Both the position numbers and the translations under genes were made by a program. From Thalassovita mediterranea (GTDB lineage: Bacteria > Pseudomonadota > Alphaproteobacteria > Rhodobacterales > Rhodobacteraceae), in contig NZ_CYSF01000017.1 of the NCBI RefSeq assembly GCF_001458435.1, positions 186,001-250,000 on the forward strand: 64,000 nucleotides of DNA, read 5' to 3'. The notes under the pieces are model-generated. The model ran no database searches. It was given only the letters and a program-made list of their open reading frames with translations, and was not told where the DNA came from. Below are positions 26,505 through 42,734 of the stretch, piece after piece (within the stretch, counting starts at the first letter, position 1; each line of letters starts with the position of its first letter).

Positions 26505-26824
26505 GCGCGTTCCCTCATTTTCTAATCGCTGATTCTTGCAGCAAAAGTGCCGTAGACTACGCCAGTTTCAAGGCGGACATAAAACCCGGAAAACGCCCAG
26601 CACCTACATGAAATTTGACCTAAGTCATATATTTCAGCGGCTTAGATGATAAATTGCCGAATAATGACGCAGGGGAAAATAGGTCAGCAATGCGTATGCA
26701 TCAACTGCATAGCTGCGTTGCGGCATCAGCGATTGTGCATCCGCAGCGACACCCCCATATTCAGGTCATCGAGACGAACACGGTGCCGATACGCGGCGCT
26801 GACACGCTAGAAAGAGACACTGAA
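26505..26824. promoter_or_regulatory. Divergent intergenic region between mrp and the DUF1127 gene
   Basis: The 320 nt must hold the promoters of both neighbours. The stretch around 26600-26690 is AT-rich and includes TTTGACC and TCATATATTT. In Rhodobacter sphaeroides the homologous DUF1127-CcsR unit is transcribed by heat-shock-type sigma factors, but I cannot place a confident -35/-10 pair here. The DUF1127 frame stays open back to 26654, but no good ribosome binding site supports a longer protein. Confidence 0.5.
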
Positions 26825-27043
26825 ATGGCACACGCAGTTACACATCGCAGCCACTCCTTTGGTATCGCAGACCGCGCCGCGGTGCTGATCCAGGACCTGC
26901 GCGATCGTCTGGCACGCCGCAAGGTGTACCGCGAAACCATCAACGAGATGTCGGTTCTGTCGAACCGTGAACTGGCTGATCTGGGTTTCAACCGTAGCCA
27001 GCTGCGCTCCATCGCTTGGGAAGCGGCCTACGGCAACAAGTAA
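26825..27043 (+). CDS. DUF1127 small arginine-rich protein
   Basis: The 72-residue protein ends in the YjiS/DUF1127 domain: RETINEMSVLSNRELADLGFNRSQLRSIA (start and end of a longer segment at about residues 39-66) is preceded by a basic helix LRDRLARRK. DUF1127 proteins are small RNA-associated or phosphate- and stress-linked factors in alphaproteobacteria. The gene is the first of a unit whose 3' part is an array of anti-Shine-Dalgarno hairpins beginning 12 nt after its stop. The same arrangement, gene RSP_6037 plus CcsR1-4, is known in Rhodobacter sphaeroides. Confidence 0.88.
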   Translation: MAHAVTHRSHSFGIADRAAVLIQDLRDRLARRKVYRETINEMSVLSNRELADLGFNRSQLRSIAWEAAYGNK

Positions 27044-27054
27044 GTTACAGGTTC

Positions 27055-27087
27055 CAGACACTTTTCTCCTCCTCCCTTAAGTGTCTG
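27055..27087 (+). ncRNA. CcsR-like hairpin 1
   Basis: Stem CAGACACTT (27055-27063) with AAGTGTCTG (27079-27087), loop containing CTCCTCCTCCC. It starts 12 nt after the DUF1127 stop. Confidence 0.85.
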
Positions 27088-27093
27088 AAATCA

Positions 27094-27128
27094 GCGGCGT
27101 CCTCTCTCCTCCTCCCTGAGGGCGCCGC
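27094..27128 (+). ncRNA. CcsR-like hairpin 2
   Basis: Stem GCGGCGTCCTC (27094-27104) with GAGGGCGCCGC (27118-27128), eleven pairs including one G-U; loop TCTCCTCCTCCCT. Confidence 0.88.
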
Positions 27129-27137
27129 ACTCAGATA

Positions 27138-27172
27138 CGACAGACCTCTCTCCTCCTCCCTGAGGTCTTTCG
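27138..27172 (+). ncRNA. CcsR-like hairpin 3
   Basis: Stem CGA-AGACCTC with GAGGTCT-TCG, one C/T mismatch between the two parts; loop TCTCCTCCTCCCT. Confidence 0.85.
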
Positions 27173-27181
27173 TTGTCAAGA

Positions 27182-27216
27182 GCGGCACCTCCTCTCCTCC
27201 TCCCTGGAGGTGCCGC
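27182..27216 (+). ncRNA. CcsR-like hairpin 4
   Basis: Perfect 11-bp stem GCGGCACCTCC (27182-27192) with GGAGGTGCCGC (27206-27216); loop TCTCCTCCTCCCT. Confidence 0.9.
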
Positions 27217-27262
27217 ACCTGACAGCCCCGGCCCGGCAAACCGCCGCGGGGACAACAGAATA

Positions 27263-27298
27263 CGACTGGGGCTTCTCCTCCTCCCTTGCCCCGGATCG
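27263..27298 (+). ncRNA. CcsR-like hairpin 5
   Basis: Stem CGA-CTGGGGC with GCCCCGG-TCG, one bulged A and one G-U pair; loop TTCTCCTCCTCCCTT. The 46 nt before it can form a weak stem without the motif. Confidence 0.82.
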
Positions 27299-27307
27299 TT
27301 GTCAAGA

Positions 27308-27342
27308 GCGGCGACCTCTCTCCTCCTCCCTGAGGTCGCCGC
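27308..27342 (+). ncRNA. CcsR-like hairpin 6
   Basis: Perfect 11-bp stem GCGGCGACCTC (27308-27318) with GAGGTCGCCGC (27332-27342); loop TCTCCTCCTCCCT. The 16 nt at 27297-27312 are identical to those at 27171-27186 before hairpin 4. Confidence 0.9.
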
Positions 27343-27369
27343 ATCTTTGACTGGGACCAGATTTGGATA

Positions 27370-27402
27370 CGGCATCTTCCTCCTCCTCCCTAGAAGATGC
27401 CG
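27370..27402 (+). ncRNA. CcsR-like hairpin 7
   Basis: Perfect 10-bp stem CGGCATCTTC (27370-27379) with GAAGATGCCG (27393-27402); loop CTCCTCCTCCCTA. Confidence 0.88.
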
Positions 27403-27410
27403 CGAAGAAG

Positions 27411-27451
27411 ACGGCGGCGCCCCTCCTCCTCCCTGGGTGCCGCCGTTTTTT
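27411..27451 (+). ncRNA. CcsR-like hairpin 8, also the terminator
   Basis: Twelve-pair stem ACGGCGGCGCCC (27411-27422) with GGGTGCCGCCGT (27435-27446), one G-U, loop TCCTCCTCCCT, then T6. It combines the regulatory loop with rho-independent termination. Confidence 0.88.
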
Positions 27452-27509
27452 CATGTCTGGCGGTTGGAACAGTTGGCATCCCCACAAAACGACGCGCGCA
27501 GCAGACGCG

Positions 27510-39380: not shown

Positions 39381-39455
39381 GCGGGCGTAGCTCAGGGGTA
39401 GAGCATAACCTTGCCAAGGTTAGGGTCGGGCGTTCGAATCGCCTCGCCCGCTCCA
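39381..39455 (+). tRNA. tRNA-Gly(GCC), copy 1
   Basis: Acceptor arms GCGGGCG and CGCCCGC close a 75-nt cloverleaf; anticodon loop TTGCCAA gives GCC; T loop GTTCGAATC; CCA is encoded at 39453-39455. Confidence 0.97.
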
Positions 39456-39496
39456 ATTAGGTATACCCACGGTGGTCACCCAACCACCAAAAGGAA

Positions 39497-39571
39497 GCGG
39501 GCGTAGCTCAGGGGTAGAGCATAACCTTGCCAAGGTTAGGGTCGGGCGTTCGAATCGCCTCGCCCGCTCCA
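39497..39571 (+). tRNA. tRNA-Gly(GCC), copy 2
   Basis: Identical to the copy at 39381, 41 nt further on; encoded CCA at 39569-39571. The spacer differs from that after copy 2, so the duplication covers only the tRNA. Confidence 0.97.
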
Positions 39572-39619
39572 ACTTCCTCCAGCCGGAGGCGTCAGAACTG
39601 CGTCAGTGTTCACAACGGA

Positions 39620-39694
39620 GCGGGCGTAGCTCAGGGGTAGAGCATAACCTTGCCAAGGTTAGGGTCGGGCGTTCGAATCGCCTCGCCCGCTCCA
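39620..39694 (+). tRNA. tRNA-Gly(GCC), copy 3
   Basis: Third identical copy, 48 nt after copy 2, with encoded CCA at 39692-39694. All three probably belong to one transcript that continues to tRNA-Thr. Confidence 0.97.
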
Positions 39695-39848
39695 ATTTAC
39701 TACCCACAACACCAACCATATCTGCATCGGTGGGACTTATCGTTCGCATGCAGCAATCTGTCATTTTTCCCGCACCTACCAGCATTTGCCCCCTTGCACC
39801 CCACCGCCCTGTCGGCTAATCCAAGGCGCAGGCCAGCACGCTGGCCGT

Positions 39849-39924
39849 GCCCCTATAGCTCAGCTGGTAGAGCAACTGATTTGTAATCAGTAGGTCCGCG
39901 GTTCGAGTCCGTGTGGGGGCACCA
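39849..39924 (+). tRNA. tRNA-Thr(TGT)
   Basis: Acceptor GCCCCTA pairs with TGGGGGC; anticodon stem-loop ACTGA-TTTGTAA-TCAGT reads TGT; T arm GGTTCGAGTCC; encoded CCA. Length 76 nt. Confidence 0.97.

Positions 39925-41184: not shown

Positions 41185-42734
<1,550 letters not shown>

Follow-up and report, generated by a model that had tools for sequence, protein, structure and literature searches.

The window analysed here, a stretch of 64,000 nucleotides from Thalassovita mediterranea, carries a DUF1127 gene followed by eight hairpins that very probably form a small RNA operon of the CcsR type (cuckoo, ar14-like), with four processed two-hairpin sRNAs that would block Shine-Dalgarno (SD) stretches and damp uptake and oxidation under stress. 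The array is an ordinary-sized, well-conserved member of the CcsR/cuckoo group, and its hairpins, their spacing in pairs, the covariation of the stems and the conserved layout of the operon can all be observed directly. The CcsR sRNA operon is known for oxidative and other stresses, and in Rhodobacter sphaeroides the CcsR units are cut out by RNase E. In the window a single transcript would consist of the DUF1127/CcaF1-like mRNA with four two-hairpin units held in its 3'UTR, RNase E would excise each unit to give an sRNA with two unpaired CUCCUCCUCCCU loops, and these loops would pair with extended SD stretches (GGGAGGAG...) and block translation, with the operon lowering uptake and oxidation when the cell is stressed. 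Transcription, processing, targets and stress induction are thus the predicted part of the scheme.

Structure and selection of the hairpin array

The earlier note had described eight stem-loops with an identical loop at 27055-27451, and this description is confirmed. Across the 64 kb of the window the 12-mer CTCCTCCTCCCT is present in exactly eight copies, which all lie on the + strand at 27066-27434 with none on the opposite strand, and each copy forms the loop of a separate predicted hairpin (with local folds of -14 to -30 kcal/mol). The predicted fold of 27041-27460 is a row of hairpins at -203 kcal/mol. Scanning both strands of the window for hairpins with a CCTCC loop gave a single cluster of eight at 27050-27451, outer pairs included, and no further cluster of two or more such hairpins on either strand. 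The count depends on the rule that is applied, with three versions of the scan giving 8, 7 and 8 hairpins for the window array; the last version was used, and the stricter version that gave seven had missed hairpin 5.

Fold and hairpin scan place all of the hairpins on the + strand, with hairpins 1 and 2 (pair 1) at 27055-27087 and 27094-27128, hairpins 3 and 4 (pair 2) at 27137-27173 and 27180-27218, hairpins 5 and 6 (pair 3) at 27266-27294, the one absent from stricter scans, and 27306-27344, and hairpins 7 and 8 (pair 4) at 27368-27404 and 27406-27451, the last having the shape of a terminator with TTTTTT at 27446-27451. The loops are 40, 44, 44, 81, 45, 60 and 43 nt apart, a spacing that fits four pairs, although the fit is weak between pairs 1 and 2, where the 44-nt gap is about the same length as those inside a pair and counts against the pair reading. 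Across arrays with at least four hairpins and all spacings below 90 nt, the unit is the hairpin pair: the odd-numbered spacings (first, third, fifth and so on) have a median of 39 nt and the remaining spacings one of 64 nt. Hairpins 4 and 6 with their flanks are 82% identical across 51 nt, which suggests a duplicated unit.

The covariance model of Rfam family ar14 (RF02344) gives 65.3 bits at 27088-27221 (hairpins 2-4), above the gathering score of 58.8, and 50.0 and 39.7 bits, under that cut-off, on two other parts of the array. A plasmid search returned short matches only. Elsewhere in the window Rfam models find a cobalamin riboswitch at 41209-41394 and a run of four tRNA genes at 39381-39921, three of which score equally.

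That the array follows a DUF1127 gene, as had been claimed, is also correct. A 72-aa open reading frame (ORF) at 26825-27043, on the same (+) strand and directly upstream, matches Pfam PF06568 (E 4e-10) and is CcaF1-like, the array starts at most 20 nt past its stop codon, and DUF1127 relatives stand ahead of the array in all nine genomes of the genus.

It is apparent that the array is selected as RNA, with stems that vary and covary and loops that are nearly constant. In the nine genus arrays (the window array and L146-L153, with orthologous hairpins matched by order alone) a 5' arm pairs with its own 3' arm at 8.7 of 9 positions but at only 5.2 of 9 when matched to the 3' arm of a different hairpin from that array, and when arms are swapped between genomes pairing drops for all hairpins. 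Both sides have changed at 55 of 72 stem positions within the seven genus genomes that have eight hairpins, and the core CCTCCTCCC is intact in 54 of 56 loops, all but those of hairpin 7 in L146 and hairpin 6 in L149.

A further observation concerns the leader of the DUF1127 gene. GGAGG within 22 nt of the start (26803-26824 in the window) is found in none of 97 DUF1127 leaders, whereas among 232 control starts 12 have it (Fisher p 0.02), a test that is weak because shorter SD pieces are commoner in these leaders than in controls (46 of 97 against 59 of 232) and some starts are probably misplaced, too far upstream in at least seven regions. With GGAGG-free leaders the DUF1127 gene may escape the RNAs of its own operon, on weak statistics.

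Relatives of the array and the number of hairpins

The anti-SD (aSD) character of the loops and the kinship with CcsR1-4 proposed in the earlier note are borne out, both by the ar14 score above the gathering score and by the DUF1127 gene upstream, the layout published for ccaF1-CcsR, in which the CcsR RNAs lie behind a DUF1127 gene (PMC10253847, in the text accessible). As in R. sphaeroides, so far as the accessible accounts describe it, a DUF1127 gene precedes a tandem series of RNAs, each with two CCUCCUCCC stem-loops, that closes with a terminator; the window differs in that its stem sequences and protein have diverged and in a promoter whose site 1 (described below) is nearer the -35 and has an RNY centre. 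Cuckoo RNA/ar14 (RF02344), which includes NfeR1 of Sinorhizobium meliloti, has the same CCUCCUCCC aSD loop and variable, covarying stems, but the motif as described in the accessible part of PMC4504443 has 2-4 hairpins per RNA, whereas eight lie in the one window array behind DUF1127.

The claim that eight hairpins represent an expanded version of the four CcsR RNAs does not survive. RS0680a of R. sphaeroides has two stem-loops with the motif in each (PMC3927594), and RSs0680a-d were later named CcsR1-4 (PMC5036791, in the portion accessible), therefore four CcsRs equal eight stem-loops. Eight is also the number in seven of the nine genus genomes, the others having 7 and 10, and among close relatives of R. 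sphaeroides it is the number found in Cereibacter azotoformans (L066); another such relative, C. johrii (L065), has nine, one of them just 17 nt from its neighbour, or eight by the stricter scan. In a family sample of 61 genomes, one per genus, 47 arrays lie close behind DUF1127; their hairpins number 2-17 with a median of 7, and 18 of the 47 have at least eight. The named set L065-L110, which is mostly Rhodobacterales and in which some Paracoccus genomes contribute several loci, holds 43 arrays of 1-14 hairpins (median 9; at least eight in 30), and L111-L144, mostly Rhizobiales, hold 28 arrays of 1-6 hairpins (median 3), of which 26 have one or three. L001, L002 and L004 were dropped as duplicates of the window array. 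Correcting the earlier miscount, arrays of at least eight hairpins behind DUF1127 are common in the sampled Rhodobacteraceae.

The number can nevertheless change. G051 has 14 hairpins behind DUF1127 (L038, 1300-2300), arranged as seven pairs of which the last five are near-identical, in what is apparently a recent tandem expansion. This genome is probably R. sphaeroides, with a PufX match of 115 bits, from a search used solely to locate Rhodobacter-type genomes, and a DUF1127 protein 99% identical to that of Cereibacter johrii.

Hairpins of this kind are also seen away from DUF1127. Pairs of aSD hairpins lie directly after genes that, by reading of the sequence, are ammonium-transporter-like in three genomes (L051:1546-1615, L061:1526-1596 and L062:1470-1558, reverse-strand coordinates), neighbours that recall the nitrogen link of NfeR1, and another pair lies right after a gene that reads as small heat-shock-protein-like (L052:1542-1609, reverse-strand coordinates).

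Candidate targets and alternative roles of the array

If the loops act on extended SD stretches, the genes behind such stretches are candidate targets. In the window's own genome the pattern GGGAGGAG-N2-9-ATG occurs at 17 places, against 2 for a backward control; three of the 17 are the array or phasin hairpins read backwards and were excluded, and 12 of the remaining 14 start an ORF of at least 80 aa, shorter target and control ORFs being left out. Ten of these 12 resemble importer parts or metabolic enzymes by NCBIfam and Pfam. Four are importer-like, namely TRAP DctP, TRAP DctQ, a UrtE/LivF-type ABC ATPase and an ABC binding protein, and the enzyme-like ones are an acetate-CoA ligase, a CoA-transferase-like protein, an acyl-CoA ligase, a succinate-semialdehyde dehydrogenase, a CO/xanthine-dehydrogenase-type flavoprotein and a PALP-family PLP enzyme. 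The other two are DUF proteins; for one of them (L262) the start codon is probably misassigned, because its domain begins only at residue 87.

For the control SD AAAGGAGA there are 28 places, with 22 ORFs that reach 80 aa, of which 21, all except L297, were scanned with Pfam. Among them are regulators, peptidases, ribosomal protein L19, an S30AE protein, a universal stress protein, a ketoacyl synthase, other enzymes, a Clp protein, PPK2 and a cation-efflux protein, with no importers among the 21 scanned. Importers are therefore 4 of 12 candidate targets against 0 of 21 controls (Fisher p 0.012), for a target list that comes from one short pattern in one genome, with targets and controls named from partly different libraries and metabolic enzymes also present among the controls. 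This contrast may mirror the genes that use long SDs instead of regulation.

Since stretches of the GGGAGGAG type stand in front of importers and acyl-CoA catabolism genes, among others, the operon would be expected to turn uptake and oxidation down under stress. As a pattern match, distinct from a measured regulon, the candidate list fits the CcsR work on C1 metabolism and cox genes (PMC5036791) and the predicted targets of NfeR1, which include transporters (PMC10746234), as far as the accessible parts of both go; flhR is a further target of CcsR1-4 (PMC8307010, likewise in part). The ribosome would compete with the loop for the SD, and the pairing may depend on Hfq or CcaF1.

Other roles for the array can be imagined. 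The earlier note had suggested a dose-dependent trap, in which the expanded array as a whole would act as one sponge that soaks up any mRNA with GGAGG or any leader free of ribosomes. The wide range of copy number, from 2 to 17 hairpins in the 47 family-sample arrays, would suit such a sponge, as would the five near-identical tandem units of G051, which show that dosage can change by duplication. Set against this, eight is the usual number in the genus (seven of nine genomes, otherwise 7 and 10) and equals that of the four published two-hairpin CcsRs, the loop sequence is the sole support for action as a general trap or on ribosome-free leaders, and the published relative NfeR1 silences ntrB through its aSD seeds by blocking one specific ribosome binding site (accessible text of PMC10746234), so that we consider the sponge very unlikely. 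It is also conceivable that the hairpins chiefly stabilise or terminate the DUF1127 mRNA as its 3'UTR, with the loop sequence of little weight, and both the terminator shape of the last hairpin and the stability predicted for all eight would agree with that. Yet the loops are the most conserved part and the stems change with compensation, and for stabilisers an identical 12-nt loop would be unnecessary; this role appears extremely improbable. Excised two-hairpin sRNAs acting at particular SD stretches are thus the preferred reading.

The promoter and a possible link to carbon storage

The block upstream of DUF1127 is conserved across the genus and much of the family. The window has the candidate promoter TTGTGC-N17-CATATT, which may correspond to the RpoHI/RpoHII promoter expected of a CcsR-ccaF1 (CIN1) operon and is recognised by a layout that is widely conserved, in which the -35-like TTGTGC is overlapped by an operator-like site 2 (TTGTGCATCCGCAGC; 26733-26747, + strand, a pattern match) and the -10-like CATATT lies at 26756-26761 (+ strand), at an offset of 23 nt from TTG by hand-written patterns. 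The element TTGTGCAnnYGCAG overlaps the TTG...CATnTT promoter, and its longer form TTGTGCAnnYGCAGC has two places in the own genome, one of them the window promoter. Ahead of it, operator-like site 1 (CTGCGTTGCGG; 26713-26723, + strand) is PhaR-like, with one mismatch to CTGCN3GCAG, the PhaR site of R. sphaeroides (PMC12542648, in the text accessible). Further upstream, at 26696-26710 (+ strand), is ATGC-N7-GCAT, the most frequent 4+4 spaced palindrome (gaps 0-12) upstream of such operons and present in 82 of 97 regions; forms of it persist in genomes without phaR, so it may serve another regulator. A separate element, AATAGGTCAG at 26678-26687, upstream of the promoter, is well conserved in the genus and present in several other genera.

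The geometry of this promoter resembles that of phaP promoters, which PhaR controls. A -10-like hexamer 23 nt after TTG is the commonest offset among DUF1127 promoters (55 of 76 scored, 86 having the element) and occurs in 22 of 24 scored phaP promoters of 30 examined, these being the best 30 matches among those listed in the family sample (L188-L217, one second copy omitted). The phaP operators begin 20-21 nt ahead of TTG in 22 of the 30 promoters and 18-22 nt in 29, and site 1 begins exactly 20 nt ahead in all nine genus members. Of 97 upstream regions, each 350 nt long and one per locus where there are several arrays (as in L048), 65 contain the exact CTGCN3GCAG: 26 of the 45 from the family sample, 34 of the 43 from the named set and 5 of the 9 from the genus. 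Two hundred first-order Markov shuffles averaged 1.4 and never exceeded 5, and among the 4+4 palindromes compared (gaps 0-12) ATGC-N7-GCAT alone outnumbers this site. The window's own 350-nt region has no exact copy, and among L111-L144, outside the 97, there is one in 1 of 22. The pattern CTGCNNNGCAGCA is not strongly enriched in the own genome, with 34 places against 21 for the backward control.

A clean call of PhaR sites was considered and dropped, for the exact CTGCN3GCAG matches looked strong but the centre and spacing differ from phaP operators. The window sites deviate from KCTGCRNYGCAGMA, and site 2 coincides with the -35 instead of following it. On a matrix of phaP operators, which themselves have a median of 26.5, only 32 of the 97 regions exceed the 99th percentile of control segments (17.1), although the median of the 97 is 15.9, far above the -5.6 of controls.

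There is about an even chance that the conserved TGC/GCA sites serve some regulator different from PhaR, or are contacts of a sigma factor, and that their loss without phaR is coincidental. Window site 1 scores 8.4 on the phaP matrix, near the control 95th percentile of 8.1 and far below the phaP median. Outside the genus the centre of site 1 is mostly ATR, which none of 51 phaP operators has, all 51 being RNY, and the site mostly begins 28-29 nt before TTG, while the half-sites of site 2, TGC-N4-GCA, are one base further apart than the N3 of phaP. The same doubt is raised by site 2 being missing in nine of 53 family and genus loci, two of which have near-matches (L016, L023); in the other seven (L019, L039, L044, L047, L048, L053, L060) phaR is present, so site 2 can be missing with phaR present too. 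Six of these seven loci precede arrays of 2-3 hairpins, and the arrays of L048 have 6, 2 and 3. What speaks for PhaR, besides the promoter geometry shared with phaP in the window's genus, is the fate of the sites where phaR is lost. PhaR (PF07879) is nearly universal, being present in 386 of the 395 family genomes that are 95% or more complete and in 59 of 61 in the family sample, so few genomes are left for such a test, but five of the nine phaR-less genomes keep DUF1127 and the array (G003, G405, G362, G150 and G462; three genera, 2-10 hairpins). The sites as defined are absent from all five, site 1 being found in 0 of 5 against 80 of 96 other regions (Fisher p 0.0003) and site 2, by a loose pattern, in 0 of 5 against 86 of 96 (p 0.00004), both values uncorrected for kinship in a set of three genera; phaR status is known for the family sample and three of the nine genus genomes within a comparison that also includes the named set, and the phaR-less L049 was left out of the 96. 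By eye the TTGT...-10-like core is still readable at these loci and site 2 is clearly broken, but site 1 is eroded rather than gone, its GCAT-rGC parts being kept. Control of the DUF1127-CcsR operon by PhaR is therefore plausible, not proven, given sites that deviate from phaP operators, and another regulator is about as likely as PhaR.

The phasin genes, which are known PhaR targets (accessible text of PMC12542648), carry similar hairpins. In the window's own genome there is one further ar14-like place, outside the window and below the gathering score (C18, L003:1506-1565), and it consists of two hairpins between a phasin gene and phaR. Of 29 phasin genes, 20 have a hairpin with a CCTCC loop within 100 nt past the stop, compared with 7 of 229 controls, the frame of L215 not having been found and that locus excluded; the full CCTCCTCCC loop is present in only 7 of the 29 and two hairpins in only 2. 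Together with the shared promoter geometry, this places anti-SD-like hairpins in two transcripts with similarly built promoters.

A precedent for a link to storage is MmgR (alpha-r8) of S. meliloti, which has the aSD motif in a loop and is repressed by PhaR/AniA and linked to PHB and phasins (PMC7143759, PMC12542648), although it belongs to a different family and the accessible descriptions give the motif for its first loop only and name no DUF1127 neighbour. We tentatively propose, at somewhat less than an even chance, that the anti-SD RNAs of Rhodobacteraceae are one arm of a carbon-storage switch, in which PhaR represses DUF1127-CcsR as it does phaP, PHB granules soak up PhaR and both promoters open, and the CcsR units with the phasin 3'UTR hairpins shut down translation of importers and of acyl-CoA and C1 catabolism, matching uptake to storage. 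PhaR is a protein that binds storage granules.

Among the matches listed in the open-access literature, none connects PhaR with CcsR or with DUF1127 in its title or first lines, and the sole listed paper with all four DUF1127/PhaR/PHB-type terms is, from the text accessible, a Rhodovulum genome comparison. DUF1127 goes unmentioned in the accessible main text of the S. meliloti PhaR paper (PMC12542648), as does PHB in PMC7074977. The PhaR-CcsR link would be new to print, on weak evidence.

It is the promoter that would matter most, as an sRNA operon known for stress may also answer to the carbon store of the cell by way of a granule-binding regulator. If this is true, control by storage would fit the likely targets, importers and acyl-CoA genes, and would parallel MmgR in S. 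meliloti.
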